Positions 2 to 13,555 of a stretch of 14,000 nucleotides of DNA are shown piece after piece (the first letter of the stretch is position 1; each line of letters starts with the position of its first letter). Origin of the DNA: Candidatus Poribacteria bacterium (GTDB lineage: Bacteria > Poribacteria > DTPJ01 > WJIO01); contig WJIO01000289.1 of the NCBI GenBank assembly GCA_014730235.1, positions 1 to 14,000 of the forward strand. Reading direction: 5' to 3'. The position numbers and the translations under genes were made by a program. The notes under the pieces were generated by a model. That model did no database searches. It was not told the DNA's origin and saw only the letters and a program-made list of their open reading frames with translations.

Positions 2-967
2 ACGGATACAAAATCTCTTAGCAATCAGGTTTGGGAAATTAGACGGCAAACCCCTTCAACGCCACCTATCGCTAAATTCCTTCAAGGAGAACAGGGAATT
101 GATAAAACTATGGAAGAGCTAATGCCATTGCTTCCATCCTATGCAGAAAGCGCGAAAAGCCTTGTACAGATATTAGAGGTAGATCAGTCAAAACGTCATT
201 TAGTTGTGGAATTGCTGCGGAATAGCAAACCCTTCACCCCACTTAATCGGGAAGTGGAGGAGCAACAGGGATTAAGAAACAGACGGGATAACCTGGCTAT
301 ATTCGAGCTACCAGGCGGAAAAGATGGGGAATTAGCCAAAATATTTAATAATGAAGGTATTATAAAAAATCTGAACCAGATTGTAGATTCAGGCGATGAT
401 GAGATCAGAGTGTATTATATGAGGGATGGTTTGCCCTATGCGGTAATTCAACCGCTGCAAAAGTATCGAAAGCGTCATAATCAATACCTGGAGAAATTTG
501 GGGCAATAACTCCTTATACAATGCCAGGGGCAGATCAGCTTCCTAAACTTGAGCCTTCACGGATTAATCTCCGTTCCCATACAGAAAACGTGCTATACAC
601 GACTAAGGCAATATTACCAGGTGTAGTAACGCCAGTGCCATCTGGCGGGTTTGCCTTCAGCTATGAAAGCTATACAGATCAGGGTTTCGAAATACCTATG
701 CAGGAAACATTCCCTGATTTTGATTCCATGTCTCGCTGGTTAGCTAAAAGGGTTGAAGAGCGAAAAGCTTTAGAGGAAAAACTCCGATTGAGTCTGAATA
801 ATGAGCCTGATAAATACAAAAATGCGCTGATTTCAGCCTGGAAGAATGCATCAGGTAAAGAGCGGGAATGTCTCCAGTATGCAATATTCAGTCTTGGAGT
901 AAACCCTCATAACTATACCAACAATGTAAATTCAATTATCCCTAGTGGACAAACCCAGAATCCATAA
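2..967 (+). CDS. C-terminal part of a probable tubulin-like (Tubulin_2/FtsZl-type) protein, 5' end outside window
   Basis: The frame is open from base 2 without a stop, so the gene enters from the left and 321 residues of its C-terminus are visible; the internal ATG at 110 is probably not the true start. No GTPase signature (tubulin GGGTGSG-type loop) is in the visible part, so the family call is indirect. It rests on the segment around 405-485, where a short strand (EIRVYYMRDGLPYAVI) is followed by a K/R-rich helix with a YRKRHNQY run, which resembles the C-terminal end of large bacterial tubulin-like proteins, and on the vWA membrane protein immediately downstream, a typical partner of that family. 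The last ~80 residues are charged and helical (RWLAKRVEERKALEEKL), possibly coiled coil, then a polar tail. The stop lies 26 bases before the next start, so the genes are probably co-transcribed. It could equally be another large cytoplasmic partner of a vWA protein. Confidence 0.5.
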   Translation, partial: TDTKSLSNQVWEIRRQTPSTPPIAKFLQGEQGIDKTMEELMPLLPSYAESAKSLVQILEVDQSKRHLVVELLRNSKPFTPLNREVEEQQGLRNRRDNLAIFELPGGKDGELAKIFNNEGIIKNLNQIVDSGDDEIRVYYMRDGLPYAVIQPLQKYRKRHNQYLEKFGAITPYTMPGADQLPKLEPSRINLRSHTENVLYTTKAILPGVVTPVPSGGFAFSYESYTDQGFEIPMQETFPDFDSMSRWLAKRVEERKALEEKLRLSLNNEPDKYKNALISAWKNASGKERECLQYAIFSLGVNPHNYTNNVNSIIPSGQTQNP

Positions 968-993
968 TAAGACTTGAGAGGAGGGAGATTACT

Positions 994-3558
994 TTGGGTT
1001 ATATTTATAAAGCCATTGCACTCAGCATTCTCTTATCTGTTGTCACCAATGCTCAATCCGATCAGATGACAAAACCAGTAGAAGCACAACAAGTGCTGTT
1101 TATAATTGACGATAGCTCATCAATGACCGAAACAGCTTTTATGCCGGATGACCCACAGGCAAGCAGATGGGAAGTTTTAAGGAAAGTATTTCCTGAATGG
1201 CTTAATAGTCTTGATTCAGATACTTTTGCAGGAGCTATATCTGTTGGTGGAGTATGCGGCGAAAATCCTAAAATTAACATTCCACTATGCACGGATAGAG
1301 AACGGATAAAATCTGAACTGAGAAATGCCCGGCCTCATGGCAATACTAACCTGAATTCAGTTCTAAAGTCAGTTCCTCAACTGTTTGATATGTCAATTCA
1401 AGGTGGCAAACGTATTATTCTGCTGAGTGATGGATTAAACACTTGTCCGCCACTGGAATCTACATGTGAGATAGCAGCACAGCTTCACAGTGACTATGGG
1501 ATTGTCATTGATGTAGTGGCCTGGATTACTGAATCAAAGATGGAAGACGAGTTTCGCTGTGTCGCAAGAGTTACTGGAGGAACTTTTATTGCACCAAAAA
1601 CTGTAAAGGACTGGCAAAGTATTCCTTTGTCAGATATCAATCCCTGGTCTTATGTAGTCTTCGTCCTCGGATTTGCAACTTTAGTTTTATCTTCAAGAAT
1701 TCTATATAGACAGTGCTTTCATGTGTTTAACTGGAATACTGGTAAATCTACTATGGCGGGAGGGTTTCTAATGCTTTTTGGCGCTTTGGCTTTATATATG
1801 TTTTTGTTTGTGGAGTCAGGTGGAATTGCGTTAATACTGGGGGTTTTTGCGCTGTTCGGAGTTATTTTTTTGTTATCACAAAGGCAGTCTACTAATTCTG
1901 ATTCTGATAAAGATTCATTTGCTCAGTGGCCTAAGATTGCTATATTGCTTATACTAACCCTTATAATGGCAAATATCTGTAACGCGCAAGAAAACTACAT
2001 GAAAAATCCAGATACAAAATTCGCATCTCTACCATATTATCATCATATCCTGGCCATTGATCTGTCTGGTAGTGTAACAAAATACCTGGAGGAGATGAAA
2101 TACTTACTGGCTCGTTATGCTGAGATATATACCCATCCTGGGGAAGAAGTATCTCTTGTAGGCTTTGCATACAATACAAAAGGTTCCGTAAAGAAGTTAT
2201 ACACTTTTACAATACCACCTAGTGGATCAACAATAGCCCTTAGTCGCATCCTGGATGATCTGCAGATTCAGAATCCAAAGCAGACAAAGACATACTACAA
2301 GCCATTAGCGGATTTTTTGAATAATTATTTAAAAGGGGTAAAATTGCATCCTGTTATTGTCGTTATTTCTGATGGCAGGAGTGATGGCCTGCCGTATCTT
2401 CATAATGACGAATTACCTTTTAAAGAGATTTCCTTTGAAAGTCTTGGGATACGTGGTGTATATGCAGCTCCGGGTATTAATAACTGGAAAGTGGCAGTTG
2501 CCGGGGGTGATGGACTAGATTTAACAACTTTATTTCAGAAACCAATACCCACAGAGAAAATTAATAGAAACTCATACCAACCGCTAACACCTATCCTTGA
2601 TCCTGAGTTAATTGAGCCAGCATTTTATACTGAGGTTGATAGAAATCTGTCCCTAAGTCCCAATTGGAATCCGTTTTCACACAGATATTCCGGCAAGCTG
2701 TTCCTTCGGGTTCATAATGAGCAAGTAGCACGCTTTCGGACATTTCGTGTAGAACTTCGTCATGGAAATAAAGCCATTGATATTGGTGGACAAAAAAATA
2801 TTTTGGTGGACAAAAAACCAAAAGAATTTATTTTTCCAATATCATGGGACAAACAAGATGATGGAATTCCACAAGAAGCCATTGTTCAGGTTATCCTTGA
2901 ACAGGGTAATGGAATATATCGCACTATTTATCCTGATATATCAGCAAATATAAGTATAATAAAGTTAGGATATTTGTCAGAATTCTGGTTTGAATTGCTT
3001 GTAATCTTTATTAGCTTTGTTTTATTGATAATATTGCTCTTTCTGATTATACGGAAAGAGATTAACCGGAAGCAAAATCAGAAACAAATAGTTAGAATAA
3101 TGGGTGGTTCAGGTGCTGCTTTGAGTCGTTACCAGTCTATTATGATAGGTGGCAAAGGTTGTTCATTAGAGATTTCTGGAGTTCCAGATGGATTGGTTTT
3201 TGGTACTGCGGAATGGAAAGGAGTTAAAGGTGAAATCGCGATTCAACCTTTTAGTGGGATTCAGATTAGAGTTAACGGAATAGCATCAAGGGAAGTTGTG
3301 AATTACAATTTGGGATATCCGATTCAGTTCATAACTGAAGATGGGAATGCTTATGATTTCACTCTATATTCAGGTACATATAAAGATATTACTCCTGGTG
3401 TATTTCCAGACCCAACTGGATTGGATAATCTAGGTACAGAAATACACTCTCAATCTTTTGGTGATATAATATCCAGTGATTCTTCTATTACAGGATTGCA
3501 GTTTAGTCCAAATGGAGGAAATAATCAAGATAATAGTAAATATGATCCATATATTTGA
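994..3558 (+). CDS. Membrane protein with two von Willebrand factor A domains and a cytoplasmic C-terminal beta domain
   Basis: Starts at TTG 994, with a strong GAGGAGGG about 6 bases upstream. The 854-residue product begins with a signal peptide (1-20, ending TNA). vWA domain 1 spans about 33-212: MIDAS D39-x-S41-x-S43, T118 in HGNTNL and D146 in LLSDG. Hydrophobic segments follow at about 217-234, 254-272, 276-295 and 314-330. vWA domain 2 covers about 350-515, with DLSGS at 356-360 (its preceding D355 frame is AIDLSGS) and D460 in VVISDG. After a beta-rich stretch comes a helix at about 660-686 with KE/RK residues behind it, then a beta-rich domain at 698-800 of FHA-like appearance and an N/S-rich tail. 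The predicted topology puts both vWA domains outside the membrane and the C-terminal domain in the cytoplasm. Metal-dependent adhesion or complex assembly is typical of vWA domains; the ligand is unknown. It sits between the tubulin-like gene and a small membrane gene, probably in one operon. Confidence 0.85.
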   Translation: MGYIYKAIALSILLSVVTNAQSDQMTKPVEAQQVLFIIDDSSSMTETAFMPDDPQASRWEVLRKVFPEWLNSLDSDTFAGAISVGGVCGENPKINIPLCTDRERIKSELRNARPHGNTNLNSVLKSVPQLFDMSIQGGKRIILLSDGLNTCPPLESTCEIAAQLHSDYGIVIDVVAWITESKMEDEFRCVARVTGGTFIAPKTVKDWQSIPLSDINPWSYVVFVLGFATLVLSSRILYRQCFHVFNWNTGKSTMAGGFLMLFGALALYMFLFVESGGIALILGVFALFGVIFLLSQRQSTNSDSDKDSFAQWPKIAILLILTLIMANICNAQENYMKNPDTKFASLPYYHHILAIDLSGSVTKYLEEMKYLLARYAEIYTHPGEEVSLVGFAYNTKGSVKKLYTFTIPPSGSTIALSRILDDLQIQNPKQTKTYYKPLADFLNNYLKGVKLHPVIVVISDGRSDGLPYLHNDELPFKEISFESLGIRGVYAAPGINNWKVAVAGGDGLDLTTLFQKPIPTEKINRNSYQPLTPILDPELIEPAFYTEVDRNLSLSPNWNPFSHRYSGKLFLRVHNEQVARFRTFRVELRHGNKAIDIGGQKNILVDKKPKEFIFPISWDKQDDGIPQEAIVQVILEQGNGIYRTIYPDISANISIIKLGYLSEFWFELLVIFISFVLLIILLFLIIRKEINRKQNQKQIVRIMGGSGAALSRYQSIMIGGKGCSLEISGVPDGLVFGTAEWKGVKGEIAIQPFSGIQIRVNGIASREVVNYNLGYPIQFITEDGNAYDFTLYSGTYKDITPGVFPDPTGLDNLGTEIHSQSFGDIISSDSSITGLQFSPNGGNNQDNSKYDPYI

Positions 3559-3569
3559 TGGAGGTTATC

Positions 3570-3896
3570 ATGTATAGAATGATTCCAGAATTAATAATTG
3601 GTTTAAGCATTGGAATATGGCTGTTTATATGTCTTGCGCTCTACAGATATTCAAGGAAAGCTGCATGGTTGGCTGGTTCTACAGTTGCATCGAGTTTGTT
3701 TCTTCTTGGTTCTACAATTGCGTTTAGTTTTATGGTCAGATGCGCCATTTTTCTTATACCTTTATGGTCTGCAATTCTAATACTTCTCATAATTCATCTG
3801 AAATCTGCTCTACATTCTTCTGAAAACCTGAACAAAAATTTCCAGGAACCAAATCCAAGAATTAATATACAATTCCCCAATGATTTGGGAATATAG
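3570..3896 (+). CDS. Small three-helix membrane protein of the vWA operon
   Basis: I do not recognise this 108-residue protein. It has three hydrophobic segments at about 7-26, 31-54 and 56-76 and a polar, N/P-rich cytoplasmic-type tail (PNPRINIQFPNDLGI). I chose ATG 3570 because GGAGG lies at 3560-3564 with a 5-base spacer. In-frame alternatives are TTG 3555 and ATG 3558, which would overlap the vWA stop codon at 3556-3558. The 11-base spacing after the vWA gene indicates translational linkage, so it is probably a membrane partner of the double-vWA protein. No catalytic motif is visible. Confidence 0.7.
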   Translation: MYRMIPELIIGLSIGIWLFICLALYRYSRKAAWLAGSTVASSLFLLGSTIAFSFMVRCAIFLIPLWSAILILLIIHLKSALHSSENLNKNFQEPNPRINIQFPNDLGI

Positions 3897-3980: not shown

Positions 3981-4034
3981 TGACGCCATAGGAAGAAAAG
4001 ATCATGTATACTTGACTTTCCAATGGAGTTGATT

Positions 4035-5053
4035 ATGAAAGCAATAGCATTATTAGAACATGTGACAGAGTCGGAACTTGCAGAGAAAATACGCCATGAA
4101 AAGGATGCATCAGTCCGGGACAAATATCGTGCTATACTATGGATATATCAAGGAGAAAGTCGTGTTGAGATAGCCAAACGTCTGGGTATTGGCAATAATA
4201 CTCTTTACAGGTGGGTAAAGCGATATAACACCAGTGGAGAGTCAGGACTTCATCGCCAACCGGGACAAGGTAGGAACCCGATCCTAACACCGGATAAAGT
4301 GGAGAAGATAAAGGACTGGGTATCTGAAGGGGAAGGGGTATGGACACTGAAACGTATGATGCTGAAACTGGAGGAATCAGAGGGTATATGTGTAACCCAG
4401 CAAGCTATCTGGTATGCGTTGCAGGATTCAGGCTGGAGTTGGAAGACAGGAAGACCAACCAACCCAAAAGGCGACAAGGATGCACAGGAAGCCTTCAAAA
4501 AAGGGGGCTAACAGAAGCAGCAGAAGATGGTAGTGGGGTTATCTTTGCAGATACTATGCGCTATGGGTTGATAAGCAATCCCTGGCGGAACTGGGGACCC
4601 GTGGGAGAGGGAGTATCTATACCCAAGCAGATGGAGTTTGAGTGGGGTTATCTGTGGGCAGAAATAAAGGTTTTGTCAGGAGAGGTGAATGTATGGTTTC
4701 TTCCAGAGATGAATGGAGCTACTTTATCCAAAATAGTGGCTAAGATGCCGGAAAAATGGGGTAACAATGTGGCTTTGGTTTGGGACAACGCAGGAGCACA
4801 CAAGTCAGCGGCTAAGAATCTTCCAGATGGCATAAACGTAATACCATTGCCAGCATACAGTCCAGAACTGAATTCTGTGGAGCGTTTCTTTCAGGAATTA
4901 CGTCGCAGCATAGCCAACAAGATATTCGGTTCTCTGGAAGAGCTTGAGGACGCTTTATCAGAAGCCTTGAAGGAATATTTCCAGAACACAGAGAAAGTCA
5001 GACAATTGTGTGCATATCCCTGGATCCTTGAGCAGATTCAGGGAACAGGATAA
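4035..5053 (+). CDS. IS630-family transposase, expressed across two frames
   Basis: The first frame runs to a stop at 4509-4511 and the second is open from before 4340 to 5053. Joined by a -1 shift at an A6G5 run they give about 339 residues, the usual family length. The N-terminal part has a helix-turn-helix (about residues 41-64: SRVEIAKRLGIGNNTLYRW) for binding the inverted repeats. The second frame carries the DDE triad: D codon at 4550 (VIFADTMRYG), D at 4784 (VWDNAGAHKS) and E at 4880 (YSPELNSVERF). ATG 4035 is preferred because GGAG sits 6 bases upstream; ATG 4023 is the alternative. The enzyme should cut and paste the element into TA sites. The split is either a programmed frameshift, known in this family, or a decaying copy; the intact triad and ends favour the former. 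Confidence 0.85.
4494..4507 (+). promoter_or_regulatory. Probable -1 frameshift site in the IS630 transposase
   Basis: First-frame codons read TTC AAA AAA GGG GGC and meet TAA two codons later. Slippage of the lysine tRNA back one base on the A6 run moves ribosomes into the second frame (reading AGG GGG CTA). The heptamer is not the ideal A AAA AAG phase, so P-site slippage or transcriptional slippage on the A6G5 run are both possible. Confidence 0.55.
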
Positions 5054-5555: not shown

Positions 5556-5566
5556 TGGTCTTCGGA

Positions 5567-5611
5567 CTCCGGATCTAAAGGCCGTCGGTTCGAATCCGAC
5601 CAGGCATACCA
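5567..5611 (+). pseudogene. 3' half of a tRNA, probably tRNA-Arg(CCG); attachment-site remnant
   Basis: The segment gives anticodon loop CTCCGGA (anticodon CCG at 5569-5571), 3' anticodon strand TCTAA (5574-5578), a variable loop of 5, a perfect T arm (GTCGG at 5584-5588, loop TTCGAAT, CCGAC at 5596-5600), an acceptor 3' strand CAGGCAT (5601-5607), discriminator A and CCA (5609-5611). The bases before it do not complete a tRNA: the 5' anticodon strand mispairs and no ATGCCTG-like acceptor strand or D arm is present. A tRNA 3' fragment with an integrase reading towards it is the classic signature of site-specific integration. Identity depends on where the true anticodon stem lies, so Arg(CCG) is the best reading only. 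Confidence 0.7.
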
Positions 5612-5612
5612 A

Positions 5613-6197
5613 CTATAAACCCTGTGAAGATGTAGCTTCATGGGGTTTTCCCTTTCTCGGTGTGTCAGCAAAATTACCTGCCGAGTGTCCTAATAGTGTC
5701 CTAAATTTGCCGGAGCGTTCTGCATAAGGGAGTTTCATGACCTGCTGGTTGATGTGATCCTGGGATAGATGAGCATATTGAAGTGTTGTTTCGTAACTCC
5801 TGTGGCCCATCAACTCCTGCACTTCCCGGAGTGGAACACCCGCCATCACAAGCTGGGAGGCAAATGTATGCCTTAAAGTGTGCAGTGTAACATTTTTCAA
5901 GCCAGCATCTTTCACTATACGTCCAAGACTTTTCTTTATATTACTCCTGAGCCTTTTACCCCTGAAAGTGAATACATAATCACTTTTAATTTCGTTTTCT
6001 ATGTAATATCTTCTGTGTTCCTGAAGAACATCAAATAATACAGGGGTTATTGGAAGTATTCTTGAGCGGTAGTTTTTTGTATGCCAGTCTTTTTTGGCCT
6101 GGACTGTTATAATTCCCATATCAAAATCAATATCAGACCACTGCAGATTAAAAAGCTCTGACTTTCTAATGCCCGTATGCAAAGCTTCTCTTCCTAT
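5613..6197 (-). pseudogene. Tyrosine recombinase/integrase, N-terminally truncated
   Basis: About 189 residues from TTG 6182 make up a complete phage-integrase catalytic domain: R6 (HTGIRKSEL), K36 in the beta-hairpin, H101-x-x-R104 (HTLRH), H127 (MGHRS) and the nucleophile Y136 (LQYAH). The SAM-like core-binding domain that should precede it is missing; in frame, a TAA lies at 6200-6198, only six codons upstream of the TTG, and the start region of the next gene begins there. A working integrase of this type is about 300 residues or more, so this copy has most likely lost activity. It ends 2 bases from the tRNA fragment, oriented towards it, which marks it as the integrase of the element inserted at this tRNA. 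The alternative is a rare stand-alone catalytic protein started at TTG 6182. Confidence 0.8.
5617..5649 (+). terminator. Rho-independent-type terminator hairpin behind the tRNA fragment
   Basis: AAACCCTGTGAAG (5617-5629) pairs with CTTCATGGGGTTT (5636-5648) through 13 bp including two G-U pairs, around a 6-base loop, ending in TTTT. It starts 5 bases after the tRNA CCA, as expected for the original tRNA gene's terminator, and overlaps the last codons of the integrase on the other strand. Confidence 0.6.
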
Positions 6198-6245
6198 TTA
6201 TAGACATGGTTGATGAAGATAACAATTATAATAGGGAATTTAAAA

Positions 6246-6752
6246 ATGTGGATCCGGGATCATATATGGCCAATATTTAGCGCAGTTGTAGCTGCCATTT
6301 TTTTCGCTGTTTATCTTATACTATCCGTTCATCTTTATATTTTGGCTCAAGCTATAATAATTCTATACGCTTTAATATGCTTCTTTTGGTTAGTTCCTTG
6401 GTTTCTTCGTGGAAACTATGAGAAAGACCGCAAACAAAGCATATTATTAGCGATTTTTATGATGTTACTTTCTACATTTGCTTGCATCCTTTGTTTTTCT
6501 TTAATATATTATAAAATGGGAGTTTTTTATGATGAGGGATCAAAAAGAATCCAGGCATTGCTTCCTGAATGTCTTTATTTTAGTGTAGTTACCTGGACGA
6601 CTCTTGGCTATGGTGACTATTATCCCTGTGGCTGGTCACGTTTTATTGCATCTTTTGAGGCCCTTATAGGATATGCCGTTATGGGATTAATTATAGGTTT
6701 CATTGCTACTTTTTCATACAACTCACTAATTAATAACAGTGAAAATAATTAA
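6246..6752 (+). CDS. Two-transmembrane-pore-type K+ channel protein
   Basis: 168 residues from ATG 6246 (AGGGA at 6233-6237, 8-base spacer); in-frame TTG 6210 and ATG 6213 would add 11-12 residues without a clear ribosome site. Hydrophobic helices at about 8-28, 31-54 and 66-89 precede a pore helix (109-118) and the potassium selectivity filter TTLGYGD (118-124), then the inner helix 131-155 with glycines (GYAVMGLIIG) that could form the gating hinge. No cytoplasmic RCK/TrkA-N or cyclic-nucleotide domain is present, so gating must come from elsewhere. The channel should sit in the inner membrane as a tetramer and let K+ flow. The STAND ATPase gene starts 26 bases downstream, so the pair is probably an operon, and the ATPase is a candidate regulator. 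Confidence 0.85.
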   Translation: MWIRDHIWPIFSAVVAAIFFAVYLILSVHLYILAQAIIILYALICFFWLVPWFLRGNYEKDRKQSILLAIFMMLLSTFACILCFSLIYYKMGVFYDEGSKRIQALLPECLYFSVVTWTTLGYGDYYPCGWSRFIASFEALIGYAVMGLIIGFIATFSYNSLINNSENN

Positions 6753-6778
6753 TAAAGGAAACGGGTGAAATTGAGGAA

Positions 6779-9295
6779 ATGTTTGAAGATTTTGACAACA
6801 CATTATTTCTAATTATTAGCAGTCTATTAGGCTCTTTTTTCGTAGGTCTTGTTACTTACTTCTTCTTATATGCGTTGAAAAAAAAGCAATCGGATGCGAA
6901 AAAAGCAGGAGAAAATTCATCCAGCCAGAAGCCATTGTTGTCTTTGGCCAATTTACCATCTACTGAGGCAAGATTGTTTGGCCGGGATAATGAACTTAAA
7001 ATACTTGATTCTGCATGGAATGACCCTGAGATCAACATAGTTAGCCTTGTGGCTGCTGGTGGAGTCGGTAAAACTACACTGGTTAATAACTGGTTAAATA
7101 AAATGCAGGAAGATGATTATCGAGGTGCTGCAAGGATTTATGGATGGTCCTTCTATAATCAAGGAGTGACAAAAGGAACGCAAGCATTGGCTGACAAAAA
7201 TCAAACAGAGATTGAAGAAACACAAGCATCGGCTGACGCATTTATTACCGCCGCGCTAGAATGGTTTGGAGATCCGAATCCCACAGAAGGCTCTCTTTGG
7301 AACAGAGGCGAAAGATTAGCTGGATTAATTGGGAAACAAAAAACATTGCTTATTTTGGATGGTTTAGAGCCATTACAAAATCCTCCGGGACAAGAGACAG
7401 GTAAGATCAAAGACAGGGCTCTCAAGAATCTATTGCGTGGATTGATGTATCAAAATTCCGGTCTTTGTATTATTACTACGCGTTTGCCAGTTGATGATTT
7501 AAAAGAAAATGTTGGCAATTCCGTAAAGCAAATTGTTCTGGAAGATCTATCCCATGAGGCAGGTGCAAAGCTTCTCAAAAGCTTAGGGGTAAAAGATACT
7601 TTGGATATAAATGATACTGATGATGAAATTAATGAGGCAATGGATGAGTTTGGTCGTAATGCTTTGACGCTGACGCTTTTGGGCAGATACCTGGCGATTG
7701 TATACGGAGGCGATATCAGAGAACGGCATAGGATTGATAAACTTACAATTGAACCAAAGCAGGGAGAGCAAGCTAAACGAATAATGAAATCTTATGAAAC
7801 ATGGTTCAAAGATGAGACTGAACTAGGTATACTGAAGGTAATGGGCTTATTTTATCGTCCTGAAGAAATTGATGTGGTTAATGAGCTTCTCGAGAGCGGT
7901 ATTAGTATGCTGATTCCTGAATTAAAAAATAAGTCTGATGTCACTCGGCAGATTGCTCTAAGCAATCTAAGGGATGCTGGTCTTTTGTTTCCAAAAGATC
8001 CAAACAGACCAGATATCTTAGATTGGCATCCATTAATGCGTGAATATTTTGGGGAGAAGTTGAAAGAGGATGAACAAGATTCATGGAGGAAAGCCCACTA
8101 TATAATGTATAAATACTATGAATCTAAGGCTAAGGAATTTCCTGAAACATTCAAGGAGATGGAATCTCTATATACTGCGATGGCTCATGGTTGCCAGGCC
8201 GAACGATATGAAGATGCCTGGAATGATGTATATTTGCCCAGAATACCTGGAGAACAGCGACCCGATGGTAAAAAATTCTACAGTACATATATTCTTGGAG
8301 CTTTCGGTGCTGAATTAGACGCCCTATCACATTTTTTCTCGAATCCATGGAAAGAATTGGTAGAGAATATTGATCCAGCAATAGGATTATCAGTTAGGCA
8401 GCAGACTGGTTTCTGTCTAAGAGCACAGGGACTTACTAAGCAAGCTGTTGATTGCCTTAAAGAAGCTCTCAAGGAGCATAGGAAAAAACCTGAATGGAAA
8501 GAAGAGGCAGTCAAAGATACCAGTATACTGATGCAGCTATATTTAAATATGGGTGAGATAGAAAATGCAGAGAAATGTATTGGGGAAGGAGTTGATCTGG
8601 CAGATGAAATTGAGGATGTTTTAGAGCCTTTCAAGAAGCGCACTGAACATGCATGGGTTTTGTTTAAAATGGGAAGAATGGTAGAAGCTGATAAACTCTT
8701 TAATGAAGCCTGGAGTTTGTCAGGGGCAAAGCAGGCTGAAAAGCAGCAGGGCGGGACATACTCATATTCAGTTTCTCGCTATTGTGAATTTCTTCTAAGC
8801 ATGGGAAGGTGTAAATGTGAAGAAGCTGAAGAATATACTAACAAAGCAGAGAAAGTCCAGGGGGATAACAAATTAGCTATTGCGCTTAACACACTTACCC
8901 TAGGAAAGATTGCCCTTTTGAAGAATGAAGATGCAGAAGAATTGCTTAATAATGCAGCAGAAGGATTTAGGGAATCTGGACGAGATGATGATCTGCCACG
9001 TGGTTTACTTGCACGGGCATTGTATTATATAAAGAAAAGCGACTTCACAAACGCCCAGAGGTATCTAGATGAAGTTATGACTTTTGCCAGGGATAACAAA
9101 ATGCGTTTGTACGAAGCAGATTGCTATCTGGAATATAGTTGGCTGTATCTAACTATGGATAAAATAAGTGAAGTCCAGAAAAGCATGGAAAAGGCTAGAG
9201 AAATGATTAATCATATGTGTTATCATCGCTGGGATAGAGAGGTAAAATTCCTTGAAGAAGTATTAAAAGAATTGCGGAACTCTGATGAAAATTAA
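6779..9295 (+). CDS. Membrane-anchored STAND-type NTPase with C-terminal TPR-like repeats
   Basis: 838 residues. One N-terminal transmembrane helix (about 8-32) is followed by a K-rich linker, then a STAND/NB-ARC-like NTPase: FGRDNEL at 67-73, Walker A AAGGVGKTT (92-100, K98), Walker B LLILDGLE (190-197, D194), sensor IITTR with R235, a NALTLTLLG segment (294-302) in place of the usual GLPLAL, and DWHPLMREYF (415-424) in the winged-helix region. Residues from about 430 to 830 are helical repeats of TPR type (for example AQGLTKQAVDCLKEALKEH, MGEIENAEKCIGEGVDLA). Such proteins hold ATP/ADP in the off state and oligomerise when the repeat domain senses a ligand or partner. The start ATG 6779 has GAGG only 2 bases away and AAGGAAA about 18 upstream, so translation may be coupled to the channel gene ending at 6752. 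The pairing with a K+ channel suggests the channel is the effector; this is inference. Confidence 0.85.
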   Translation: MFEDFDNTLFLIISSLLGSFFVGLVTYFFLYALKKKQSDAKKAGENSSSQKPLLSLANLPSTEARLFGRDNELKILDSAWNDPEINIVSLVAAGGVGKTTLVNNWLNKMQEDDYRGAARIYGWSFYNQGVTKGTQALADKNQTEIEETQASADAFITAALEWFGDPNPTEGSLWNRGERLAGLIGKQKTLLILDGLEPLQNPPGQETGKIKDRALKNLLRGLMYQNSGLCIITTRLPVDDLKENVGNSVKQIVLEDLSHEAGAKLLKSLGVKDTLDINDTDDEINEAMDEFGRNALTLTLLGRYLAIVYGGDIRERHRIDKLTIEPKQGEQAKRIMKSYETWFKDETELGILKVMGLFYRPEEIDVVNELLESGISMLIPELKNKSDVTRQIALSNLRDAGLLFPKDPNRPDILDWHPLMREYFGEKLKEDEQDSWRKAHYIMYKYYESKAKEFPETFKEMESLYTAMAHGCQAERYEDAWNDVYLPRIPGEQRPDGKKFYSTYILGAFGAELDALSHFFSNPWKELVENIDPAIGLSVRQQTGFCLRAQGLTKQAVDCLKEALKEHRKKPEWKEEAVKDTSILMQLYLNMGEIENAEKCIGEGVDLADEIEDVLEPFKKRTEHAWVLFKMGRMVEADKLFNEAWSLSGAKQAEKQQGGTYSYSVSRYCEFLLSMGRCKCEEAEEYTNKAEKVQGDNKLAIALNTLTLGKIALLKNEDAEELLNNAAEGFRESGRDDDLPRGLLARALYYIKKSDFTNAQRYLDEVMTFARDNKMRLYEADCYLEYSWLYLTMDKISEVQKSMEKAREMINHMCYHRWDREVKFLEEVLKELRNSDEN

Positions 9296-9421: not shown

Positions 9422-11359
9422 TTGAATTCCATGCTTGCCGATGACCTATTCAAAAAACTAAAGCCTATCCTCGGGGAAGAAATCTATCCATTACAGGCAG
9501 TCTATTTTGCTGGAGACAATGAAAGCAAACGAAATGTTGAGCGAGTGCTAAGAGTAGCCTACGCAAACATAATAAACGGAATCCATCCTCCGCCATTTGA
9601 AATTAGCAGCGGCAAATATCCACTAGGCTTGGTTCTGTCAGGCAACAAAGATTTGCATCCATTTTCTTTGAGAGACAATGATTTTTTCCATATCGGAATT
9701 TTCGGCCAGACAGGAAGAGGAAAGACAAATGCAATGCTTCATCTGCTCCAGACACTGGAAAATATTCCCTGGTTAGTCTTTGACTGGAAACGTGCAGGCT
9801 ATCGGGACCTTGTGAGTAATTACAGGAAGCCGGTTGCAGGTTGCTGGGAGAAGTACCGCGATGTTTGTGTTTTCACAGTAGGAAGGGATGTTTCTCCATT
9901 CTATCTTAACCCATTAATCCCGCCGCTAGGAGTTGATAATATTACATGGTACAAACAATTCATCCAGTGCATATCCCACGCATATTTTCTAGGCCACGGC
10001 TGTGAAGTAATATTGCAGGACGTTATTGGCAAAGACACACCAACACTTATTGACGTATTCAAAAAGCTAAATTCATATCCTGCCAAATGGCGAAAACTCC
10101 AATGGCTGCAATCCACAGAAAGGGCAGTAAAAGCATTGTGCTATGGCGGCATAAGCAAAGTTCTAAACACTAATTCGCCGCCAATAACTGAATGGCTGGA
10201 TAAAAATGTGGTCTTTGAGTTAGACGCTTTGACAGAATCAGAAGCAAAATTCTTTGTAAACATTGTGATGAGCCAGATTTATCTCTACAGAAAAGAAAAC
10301 AGGCACCATGGATTACAGCATGTCAGCGTGATTGAGGAAGCCCATAATGTCCTGAAAAAAGAGCCAGAGAATATGGAAGCAAAATCAGTGATGGACAAAA
10401 TCTTTAGAGAAATCAGAGAATACGGAGAAAGCATTGTAATAGTTGACCAGATGCCATCAACAATTTTGGATTCTGCCATTGCCAACACAGCAACACAAAT
10501 AACCTTCAGCTTAAAGCACAGTGAAGATGTAAAAGCAGCAGGAAAGGCAATGCTGTTGGATTATGATGACCAATTATTTCTGGGAAAACTTCCAGTAGGA
10601 ACAGCCATTGTAAAACTCCAGAACAGGTGGCACGCTCCGTTTATGATCAGATTGCCGTATGTGCCCATCAAAACTGGAAAAGCCACTGATGATATGATTA
10701 AAGCCAGAATGCCAGGTTATTTACCCCAAAGCAAAGTTATTTACCAGGAAATGCCAAAGCCGCAGGTTATTCCGGTTATTTCCAATCAAGATAAAGAAGG
10801 TAAAAAACTGGTAGTGAGCATAATTGAAAAGCCGTTATTAGGTATGGCACAAAGGTATAAAGACCTGGGACTAAACCCGAAAATCGGCAATAGGCATAAG
10901 CAAAGATTGATTGATCTTGGGCTAATAAAAGAGGTCAGTATCAAAACTCCAAAGTCAAGAATCAAGCTTCTGGAACTCACAGAAAAGGGAATGCAAAAAT
11001 ATGGCATCTCAAAATCATGGCGACATGGCGGAGTTGAACATCAGTATTGGGTTGCAAATGTTAAGAAAAAACTGGTTAAGGCTGGCTATCATCCAAAAGA
11101 GGAATATTCTATCGGCAATGGTGAGACTGTTGATTTGGCTATCATTGGAAAGAATAAGAAGATTGCCGTCGAAATCGAGACCGGAAAATCCCATGCCATC
11201 AGAAATATTCGGAAGTGCCTGGATACCGGATTTGAGATAATTTCACTGGCAACAAATAGGGATGTATTGAATAAGATAAATATAGAACTTAAGAAACTTT
11301 CTGGAGTTGAACGGCAGAGAATCAGAACCAGGATTATCACAAACACAAACCAACGCTAA
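9422..11359 (+). CDS. HerA/DUF87-type ATPase with winged-helix-like segment and PD-(D/E)XK-like C-terminal domain
   Basis: 645 residues from TTG 9422, or 642 from ATG 9431; no ribosome site precedes either, so the start is uncertain. The ATPase core has Walker A GQTGRGKT (95-102), the DUF87-type FDWKRAGYRDL (120-130), Walker B HVSVIEEAHNVL (300-311, E305/E306) and the motor-type REIREYGESIVIVDQMPS (329-346), with R329/R332 as possible arginine fingers. This fold pumps or translocates DNA as a hexamer. A segment of about 460-530 looks like a winged helix (RHKQRLIDLGLIKEV ... LLELTEKGMQKYG). Residues 560-615 fit a restriction-nuclease-like fold: ETVDLAII (D571), then KIAVEIETGKS (E584, E586, K589). 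The pattern is not a canonical D-ExK, so nuclease activity is a prediction. It could be a one-chain equivalent of HerA-nuclease pairs used in DNA repair or phage defence, or a plasmid/phage DNA-transfer ATPase. It converges on the toxin gene, whose end is 7 bases away. Confidence 0.75.
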   Translation: MNSMLADDLFKKLKPILGEEIYPLQAVYFAGDNESKRNVERVLRVAYANIINGIHPPPFEISSGKYPLGLVLSGNKDLHPFSLRDNDFFHIGIFGQTGRGKTNAMLHLLQTLENIPWLVFDWKRAGYRDLVSNYRKPVAGCWEKYRDVCVFTVGRDVSPFYLNPLIPPLGVDNITWYKQFIQCISHAYFLGHGCEVILQDVIGKDTPTLIDVFKKLNSYPAKWRKLQWLQSTERAVKALCYGGISKVLNTNSPPITEWLDKNVVFELDALTESEAKFFVNIVMSQIYLYRKENRHHGLQHVSVIEEAHNVLKKEPENMEAKSVMDKIFREIREYGESIVIVDQMPSTILDSAIANTATQITFSLKHSEDVKAAGKAMLLDYDDQLFLGKLPVGTAIVKLQNRWHAPFMIRLPYVPIKTGKATDDMIKARMPGYLPQSKVIYQEMPKPQVIPVISNQDKEGKKLVVSIIEKPLLGMAQRYKDLGLNPKIGNRHKQRLIDLGLIKEVSIKTPKSRIKLLELTEKGMQKYGISKSWRHGGVEHQYWVANVKKKLVKAGYHPKEEYSIGNGETVDLAIIGKNKKIAVEIETGKSHAIRNIRKCLDTGFEIISLATNRDVLNKINIELKKLSGVERQRIRTRIITNTNQR

Positions 11360-11366
11360 TTATCTC

Positions 11367-11819
11367 TTATCCCTCCTCGTTTGGATCAATTACAGCCAGG
11401 TTGGATATTCTGGCCGCTTCCTTCATTTCGTTATCCGATGTAATGAGAATTACCTGGTGGTCATCCTTCGGAATGCGTCTCTGCAAAAGCAGACATGATC
11501 CCAGATGCACCGCATCAGCGCCTCGAAGTGCCAATTGTTTGGCAAGGTTTGCCGCAATATCCATAGCTTCATCCCGCAATTCCACATGTATAAAGTTTTG
11601 CCAATCCTTTTCCAAATCTTCAATCTTCTGCCCGAATGTGGATGAATTGATGGCGCCAGCCTTATGTTTGCGGGCCAAAGTGGCTGTTACTTCCACTAAG
11701 CCCAGAGCAGAACATGCTAAAGGCTTGCTGTTATCAAATAAGGCCTGAACCCAATCTGTGCCCGTCTCATCATAGTAGCGTTTAACCCATGCGCTGGAGT
11801 CCAAATAATAGAAGGTCAT
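11367..11819 (-). CDS. vapC: PIN-domain toxin, VapC-like
   Basis: 150 residues, typical of VapC. The PIN acidic set is present: D7 (YLDSSAWVKRY), E43 (LVEVTATLARK), D102 (RGADAVHLGSC) and D129 (LITSDNEM). These bind Mg2+ or Mn2+ for ribonuclease activity, usually on tRNA or rRNA. The start codon overlaps the antitoxin stop as ATGA (11816-11819), giving coupled translation. The symbol reflects family resemblance only. Confidence 0.85.
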   Translation of the reverse strand: MTFYYLDSSAWVKRYYDETGTDWVQALFDNSKPLACSALGLVEVTATLARKHKAGAINSSTFGQKIEDLEKDWQNFIHVELRDEAMDIAANLAKQLALRGADAVHLGSCLLLQRRIPKDDHQVILITSDNEMKEAARISNLAVIDPNEEG

Positions 11820-12055
11820 CGTCTGTCCTCTATAAGAAGCTGAGATGCTGGAATCCCTGTGCCCTTTGCTGGCTTTACAACAGGAAAGGCTAGTTTTTTG
11901 GGAATCTTAAAGGCTGGATCATTGGCCAATGATTTCAACATCGATAGAACATTCCCTTTTTCCTGCAGAGATTGGGTAAATTCCAGTACCCGGTTTGCCT
12001 CATCATCACTTAGCGTATCAATGGTGTTATGCAATATTTCCTTGACTGAGTTCAC
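11816..12055 (-). CDS. vapB: VapB-like antitoxin of the PIN toxin
   Basis: 79 residues from GTG 12055, with a perfect AGGAGG (12063-12068) 7 bases upstream. The N-terminal half is helical (SDDEANRVLEFTQSLQEKG), resembling DUF2281-type antitoxins, and the C-terminal half (AFPVVKPAKGTGIPASQLL) is extended and would wrap the toxin's active site. It is the first gene of the pair and overlaps the toxin start by four bases. Antitoxins of this kind usually repress their own promoter, which lies at 12126-12154. Confidence 0.75.
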   Translation of the reverse strand: MNSVKEILHNTIDTLSDDEANRVLEFTQSLQEKGNVLSMLKSLANDPAFKIPKKLAFPVVKPAKGTGIPASQLLIEDRR

Positions 12056-12346: not shown

Positions 12347-13555
12347 TCAAGTAAATTTCTGAGCCACTTTTCTTAGCAAAGTGGCAGTATCCACGAGTTG
12401 AGCAAGCAACCTGAAATTGAGCAATCTACGAAAAGGTAGATTTTTCAGCTTTGACCAAAGAGTCTGCATGCCGAATTCTGGCTCAATAAGACGACGTAGA
12501 GATAACAGCAAACGTCCACACCTTGTGTGTGCAGGAAAAGCACCCAGCAAAGCTGGATGTTTCTCCATAGGAATCTCAAACTGGCATGGACATTCATGTC
12601 TGTAGAAGCAATTAAGTTCAGTGCAGTGATAGATATGCACCTCATCATCCCAATCTACATGAGACCATTCCAGTGGCTTCTCCATTTGTGGGCAACAAGG
12701 TGTGCCTGTATCACTGATAGGATATTCTGGCAGAACAGCATTTTTCTTGGGCTTAACCAGAACCAGGATATGATAGTCTTCATGCCAATCCAGTATCTGC
12801 TGAAAGTCATAGATAGCCTGGTCAACAAGGAGTATGTCCAGTTTGCCTTTGCATGCTTTGAGTAACTCCTCAATGATCTCTATGTCTGGTTTGTTAGCAG
12901 GTTGAGCATTAGTGGCAATGGGAAGCCTTTGATTCTTGTCCTGATCATATAGAAGAACCGTATGTTTACGGTATCCCAGGAACTTGTCTTTGCGAGTAGG
13001 TGTTGGGCTTTGCCAACCTATGGTAGCATCCCTGTCGCTGAAGTGCTTAGGGCAATTGCATGGTTCTTCACAATCGCAATGCTTGGTGTCCTTATATGGG
13101 GATGAATAACTTGGCATGGGAACACTGTCCCACATACCAATGCGCATAGATAGTGTGTTTGACTCAAGCTCCAAGGCATTGAGTATATCTTCATGTAGTT
13201 GTGCTGCCATCTGTGGAGTCAAGTGTTCCTTACGGAATAGGGACAGATAGCCTGATGTGAATGTAATACCATCACTTCGGCAAAAGGCGCGGTAATCAGG
13301 TTTATCCTCTACCTGTTTGGGTAGTTCGTTGAATGATACTATCTCCCGCTTCAGGAAGTATAGTAGATGGGCTTTATATGGTATCACTGGATCCAATGGC
13401 TTACGTCCCTGATTTGTCTGGCAGCCTATATATGTAGCCGCAAAGTGTTGGCGTATCTGGTCTTCATCAAGACATGAGTCTATGAATCCAAGCTGTTTGT
13501 CTTTATATTCATATTCATCATTGACATTGCCGTAGTTAAATCTTAATATTGACAT
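12347..13555 (-). CDS. DDE transposase with cysteine clusters
   Basis: 402 residues from ATG 13555, with AGGAGA 4 bases upstream. A TATAAT at 13595-13600 on the minus strand is a likely -10 box. The catalytic triad reads D143 (MWDSVPMPSY), D245 (LLVDQAIYD) and E358 (RRLIEPEFGMQ), the last in the helix typical of IS4/IS5/IS1182-type enzymes. Unusually, two cysteine-rich insertions are present: C160, C162, C166, C168 (HCDCEEPCNC) after the first D, and C311, C316, C322, C324 before the E. They suggest structural metal-binding. The frame is intact and the repeats perfect, so the copy could be active. I cannot place it more exactly than an IS4/IS1182-like or unclassified DDE family. Confidence 0.85.
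   Translation of the reverse strand: MSILRFNYGNVNDEYEYKDKQLGFIDSCLDEDQIRQHFAATYIGCQTNQGRKPLDPVIPYKAHLLYFLKREIVSFNELPKQVEDKPDYRAFCRSDGITFTSGYLSLFRKEHLTPQMAAQLHEDILNALELESNTLSMRIGMWDSVPMPSYSSPYKDTKHCDCEEPCNCPKHFSDRDATIGWQSPTPTRKDKFLGYRKHTVLLYDQDKNQRLPIATNAQPANKPDIEIIEELLKACKGKLDILLVDQAIYDFQQILDWHEDYHILVLVKPKKNAVLPEYPISDTGTPCCPQMEKPLEWSHVDWDDEVHIYHCTELNCFYRHECPCQFEIPMEKHPALLGAFPAHTRCGRLLLSLRRLIEPEFGMQTLWSKLKNLPFRRLLNFRLLAQLVDTATLLRKVAQKFT

Follow-up and report, generated by a model that had tools for sequence, protein, structure and literature searches.

A gene for a K+ channel and a gene for a membrane-anchored STAND NTPase lie side by side in the window (the whole stretch of DNA analysed, a complete contig of 14,000 bases). 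Together they may form a split-effector NLR-like system with a ligand-triggered K+ channel as its effector, probably directed against phage and placed in an old integrative-element site; a probability of roughly 0.5 is given to this reading. It draws on the two genes and their motifs, on the fold and family of the second product, and on the exchange of N-terminal modules and the split upstream effectors seen elsewhere in that family. The features concerned, with the basis of each in brackets, are as follows.

5565..5611, + strand: 3' fragment of a tRNA-Arg(CCG), an att-like remnant (5580-5611 is identical to the 3' end of the intact tRNA)
5613-6182, - strand: tyrosine integrase remnant, 5'-truncated, catalytic half only (DNA match to the copy on contig C64)
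6246..6752, + strand: K+ channel gene, 168 aa from ATG (PF07885, filter, hydrophobic segments)
6597..6617, + strand: selectivity filter TTLGYGD (channel translation)
6753..6778, + strand: intergenic spacer of 26 bases; GAGGAA lies shortly ahead of the STAND start (sequence)
6779..9295, + strand: membrane-anchored STAND NTPase with TPR superhelix, 838 aa (domain matches, alignment, fold)
6800..6877, + strand: transmembrane helix at the N-terminus, filling the slot that TIR, SEFIR, DUF4062, nuclease or kinase modules occupy in relatives
7052..7078, + strand: Walker A, AAGGVGKTT, with K98 (family alignment)
7346..7372, + strand: Walker B region, LLILDGLEP, with D194 (family alignment)
8027..8050, + strand: HPLMREYF motif of the winged helix, which served as family signature in the collection scan (alignment)
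8375..9292, + strand: TPR superhelix, presumed sensor and autoinhibitor (domain matches, fold)

The channel reading frame spans 6210-6752 (+). The ATG at 6246, chosen in the initial annotation, is the likelier start and the best one, with AGGGA about 8-10 bases 5' of it, though TTG 6210 and ATG 6213 are possible. That annotation had also described a pore protein with a TTLGYGD filter and no regulatory domain, and this is confirmed by a match to PF07885 (Ion_trans_2; E=1.1e-11) and by four hydrophobic segments, arranged as an N-terminal transmembrane hairpin, an outer helix, the pore loop and an inner helix, without a cytosolic gating domain. K+ channels (PF07885) are recognised by a T-x-G-Y-G filter between two membrane helices, and TTLGYGD is such a filter. 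In a phmmer search the protein matched KcsA and Kv pores, the KcsA alignment covering residues 102-168. Judged by their charges, the basic loop RGNYEKDRK and the N-terminus would both lie inside, which fits a pore; the single-sequence structure model is poor (pLDDT 66). Like KcsA-type channels, the window channel has an M1-P-M2 pore with a TTxGYGD filter, but it differs from them in its extra N-terminal hairpin, in the missing gating domain and in the adjoining STAND gene. Only two K+ channel matches were detectable in the source genome.

The second reading frame begins 26 bases past the channel stop, on the same strand. It had been annotated as a STAND NTPase with an N-terminal transmembrane helix and TPR repeats, and each of these elements was recovered: there is one hydrophobic helix at about residues 8-26 (score 2.12), the domain matches are to AAA_16/NACHT/NB-ARC and to TPR_12/TPR_MalT, and an AlphaFold2 model built from 51 aligned family members reaches a pLDDT of 88. 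The acidic N-terminus and the KKK after the helix predict a cytosolic NTPase. Walker A K98 (GGVGKT) and Walker B D194 are invariant across the 51 members. The closest fold matches are to the PH0952 STAND-TPR sensor (PDB 6mfv; Z 24.3, rmsd 10.2 over 605 residues) and to Apaf-1 (Z 22.1, rmsd 5.1 over 410 residues), followed by parts of MalT and by plant NRC proteins (resistosomes), while a profile search found AfsR and PH0952. Among the VIA-align rows TPR proteins predominate, and these rows were not taken for functional relatives. With its Walker motifs, NTPase-helical-winged-helix fold and superhelical sensor, the protein is a member of the STAND family. PH0952, Apaf-1 and MalT, its best profile or fold matches, have the same NTPase, winged helix and superhelical sensor; in contrast to the window protein they are soluble, lack a membrane anchor and a channel partner, and are only 14-17% identical to it.

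The truncated integrase and tRNA fragment reported beside the pair in the initial annotation were both verified, the latter as an exact tRNA-Arg(CCG) 3' end. An intact tRNA-Arg(CCG) with an adjoining intact 345-aa integrase gene is present on contig C64 of the source genome, and the integrase DNA of the window is 67% identical to this copy, the match ending at 6186, just before the channel gene. Since the channel reading frame begins 24-60 bases beyond this end, the cassette begins at a recombination break. Further copies of the tRNA 3' end lie at C64:2110-2141 (the intact tRNA, with the integrase gene) and at C418:7937-7968; C418 and the window have ~130 bases in common from the tRNA end onward. 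As the same end is copied in the window, C64 and C418, several elements have used the site. A search of 83 other genomes from the phylum gave no relative of the STAND protein, and for this reason the cassette is probably accessory DNA. Promoter and terminator scans gave results at chance level. A non-functional remnant of a mobile element, decaying as cargo, would agree with the truncated integrase next to the pair and the several insertion sequences around it, but is the least probable of the explanations considered, given that both reading frames are intact and that the filter and both Walker motifs (A and B) are retained.

Relatives of the STAND protein were collected with the degenerate pattern D..HPL.REYF, a single-protein scan of genome contigs having found nothing. 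The pattern gave more than 100 relatives in Proteobacteria, Planctomycetes, Verrucomicrobia, Acidobacteria, Thermodesulfobacteriota, Bacteroidota and Actinobacteria, and also in methane-cycling archaea; together with searches of Thiotrichales, Magnetococcales and others, the collection comprises 170 distinct members. A member occurs in half of the Thiotrichales genomes searched (21/42). Sulphur-oxidising Thiotrichales (G093, on contigs C5 and C9, G095 and G495) have several per genome, with differing N-terminal modules, and in Thiothrix members stand in tandem.

Across the family the NTPase-TPR core aligns well and is constant, while the N-terminus varies. The modules found there are TIR, SEFIR, DUF4062, nuclease (DUF4365 and others), kinase, cyclase, protease (trypsin-like) and HNH-like domains and membrane helices, some of them identified solely by reading the sequence. 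A tree of 130 cores requires at least 58 changes of module label (minimum 5; shuffled mean 80.7), and the transmembrane label alone changes at least 9 times across well-supported branches; these counts are approximate, as the labels were assigned by simple patterns. The rows nearest to the window protein carry TIR, SEFIR and nuclease modules. Effectors of known defence systems are matched by the SEFIR module (bSEFIR SEFIR domain, 4.5e-53), the TIR-like module (ThsB TIR-like, 9.5e-29), the nuclease (pAgo-associated nuclease, 1.5e-27) and the kinase (PD-T4-6 kinase, 4.6e-71), and DUF4062 is an antiphage NADase domain (Swarozyc; PMC13174449). These results support the assignment of the window STAND to a widespread NLR-like family with exchangeable effector modules in the N-terminal slot. 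They bear also on the improbable explanation that the two genes serve stress responses or K+/osmotic homeostasis, in which case the STAND protein would sense a metabolite or K+-related signal and regulate K+ flux with no immune role. Homeostasis is a common role of K+ channels, and STAND-TPR regulators of transcription or metabolism (MalT, AfsR) match by sequence and fold; against this, the closest STAND relatives have TIR, SEFIR or nuclease modules, the lack of a relative in the 83 other phylum genomes searched points to an accessory gene, and the setting is that of a mobile element.

Family members with a short N-terminus often have a separate effector gene immediately upstream:

L175:638-3909: split SEFIR gene before the STAND gene, gap 5
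L041:180-3681: split SEFIR gene before the STAND gene, gap 7
L066:224-3912 (L066/L142): cyclase-like gene before the STAND gene, overlap 1
L226: split TIR gene before the STAND gene, gap 32
L245 and L241: split TIR gene immediately before the STAND gene

At four loci the C-terminal stretch of the upstream protein repeats the N-terminus of the STAND protein, forming a homotypic tail. The local scores between the two are 102 (L041), 143 (L175), 91 (L066) and 59 (L163), against shuffled means of 23-30, and in none of 300 shuffles for each locus was the score matched or exceeded. For these pairs it argues strongly that the switch recruits the upstream protein. At L163 (1024-4025) a 116-aa protein and the STAND protein have the motif GDNVAGDK in common, at tail and start respectively. 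A TrkH K+ transporter-like gene directly 5' of these two was not counted as a channel partner, as another gene lies between it and the STAND gene.

Membrane proteins also occur upstream of a few transmembrane-anchored members:

L229/L196: trypsin-like protease with four transmembrane helices, overlapping by one base the start of a transmembrane-anchored STAND gene
L230/L197: CorA-like end (GMN motif, two transmembrane helices), 245 bases before a transmembrane-anchored STAND gene
L128/L192: two transmembrane helices joined to a weakly matching TIR/deoxyribosyltransferase-like domain (E 0.03); the gene lies 112 bases before a STAND gene with three transmembrane helices

A soluble adaptor common to the membrane protein and the STAND protein was present in none of the membrane pairs tested. 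Two further membrane neighbours are weak cases. At L247 (2996-4052) a broken STAND gene of the family is preceded by a DUF4062-like gene and by a frameshifted gene for an octameric membrane protein of the 8xMP type (PF24838, E 1e-24). The MotA/ExbB gene at L233 was rejected as a further channel partner, since it looks truncated and its STAND gene is broken.

The window channel occupies the position of these split effectors, 26 bases 5' of the STAND gene on the same strand. An ungated pore would leak unless it is controlled, its neighbour is a membrane-held switch, and the other partners in this position are effectors; the window therefore fits a membrane-bound split effector, and the channel is probably an exchangeable weapon of the STAND switch. 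The initial annotation had proposed a separate channel as the effector, and the part of this proposal that stands is the existence in the family of upstream effectors that are split and exchangeable. In the search for homologous adjacent pairs that it suggested, no second K+ channel/STAND pair was found in the 209 family loci, nor any relative of the STAND protein in the 83 other phylum genomes, and the exact pair was seen only once. The one other channel-like gene, at L134, lies ~1.1 kb upstream of a DUF4062-STAND gene and is probably unrelated. The contrary pattern named in the same annotation, a constant channel partner with a varying STAND gene, was absent; the opposite was seen, an unchanging STAND core with varying partners. 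No adaptor is common to the channel and the STAND N-terminus (score 29 vs a shuffled mean of 25, p 0.19). The STAND protein had no match in plasmid and phage records, neither protein was confirmed in viral contigs, and no STAND gene adjoins the plasmid-borne relatives of the channel (Sulfitobacter, Aeromonas) in records with annotated genes. With no other K+ channel neighbour, no relative in the 83 other phylum genomes and no common adaptor, the evidence for the pairing is a single instance.

The start of the channel gene coincides with the recombination break, so its adjacency to the STAND gene could be accidental. The leading alternative, which we regard as rather unlikely, is that the membrane-anchored STAND protein acts alone, with its helix as effector or localiser, and that the channel is an unrelated passenger from the recombination site. 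Most transmembrane-anchored members lack an effector gene directly 5' of them and may work by themselves, and about a dozen such cases are known in the collection (e.g. L151, L155, L156, L160, L236 and L237); the same break that cuts the integrase short marks the beginning of the channel gene, and the pair is not repeated. Weighing against a passenger are the common strand, the 26-base gap and a position that short-N members use for split effectors, as well as the rarity of K+ channels in the genome, though this last finding was singled out post hoc.

For a split-effector system with a channel as its weapon, we infer membrane topology, co-expression, physical coupling, signalling direction, ligand and defence role to be as follows. 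The N-terminal helix would hold the STAND-TPR protein at the inner membrane, where the TPR sensor would keep it closed. A ligand, most likely a phage product, would bind the TPR part, upon which the NTPase would exchange nucleotide and oligomerise, and so cluster or open the neighbouring channel, which has no gating domain of its own. Efflux of K+ and a change of membrane potential would then lead to growth stop or cell death. More tentatively, a bacterial NLR-like switch might directly gate a K+-selective channel that is encoded by a gene of its own and shares its membrane, turning pathogen sensing into K+ efflux, with the channel being one of the exchangeable split effectors, soluble and membrane-bound, of a single STAND-TPR family found in many phyla. 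In animals, inflammasome signalling is well known to be triggered by K+ efflux, and in plants some NLRs become cation channels once activated. If the proposal is true, the opening of a dedicated K+ channel by an immune switch in bacteria would extend the range of effectors by a type that is clean and measurable. In the collected family one switch core is combined with many effectors, either fused to it or encoded separately, of which some are recruited through a shared tail and some are bound to the membrane, and the family offers a way to undiscovered effector genes, by reading the gene directly upstream of members that lack an N-terminal module.

Avs5 combines a STAND switch with a variable N-terminal effector and a C-terminal repeat sensor (PMC12931631). 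Bacterial NLR-like (Avs, AVAST) proteins resemble the window protein in their plan of switch and C-terminal repeat sensor, but their effector is fused in the chain, whereas in the window protein a membrane helix alone fills the effector slot, and Avs models gave no match. Against the PADLOC models (Avs, bNACHT and others), the best match of the STAND protein was no better than E 0.015 and the channel had none; as none of the models of known defence systems matched, membership in them is not claimed. In the counter-invader conflict systems of Kaur et al. (2020, 2021), exchangeable effectors are recruited via matching adaptors, the effector-associated domains (PMC7159879, PMC8195603). The split pairs at L041, L175 and L066 fit this logic; the window pair lacks a matching adaptor, and the portions of the two papers drawn on here name no K+ channel effector. 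In SLATT and other pore-forming effectors of conflict systems, the killing component of an immune switch is a membrane protein (PMC7159879); compared with SLATT effectors, the window has a canonical P-loop channel of K+-selective type, without a ligand-binding domain. The parts are of known kinds, and their combination, of which no described system was known at the outset, was not found in the open-access literature searched, although absence there is not proof.

Downstream of the STAND gene by 127 bases, a gene at 9422-11359 (+) encodes a HerA/FtsK-like ATPase; the gene may be a third piece of cargo or may belong to a mobile element. Its ATPase part matches PADLOC mad8 (2.5e-13) and CedD, and its C-terminal part has weak winged-helix and MTES_1575 nuclease matches. 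The left part of the window (110-3896, +) encodes a 285-aa protein, an 854-aa VWA protein with transmembrane helices and a small membrane protein, followed by an IS element with an IS630-type transposase in two overlapping frames (4023-5053, +), the first having strong HTH matches. On the right there are a PIN-domain protein and a 79-aa partner with a 4-base overlap, resembling VapBC (11367-12055, -), and a DDE transposase gene of an insertion sequence (12347-13555, -).
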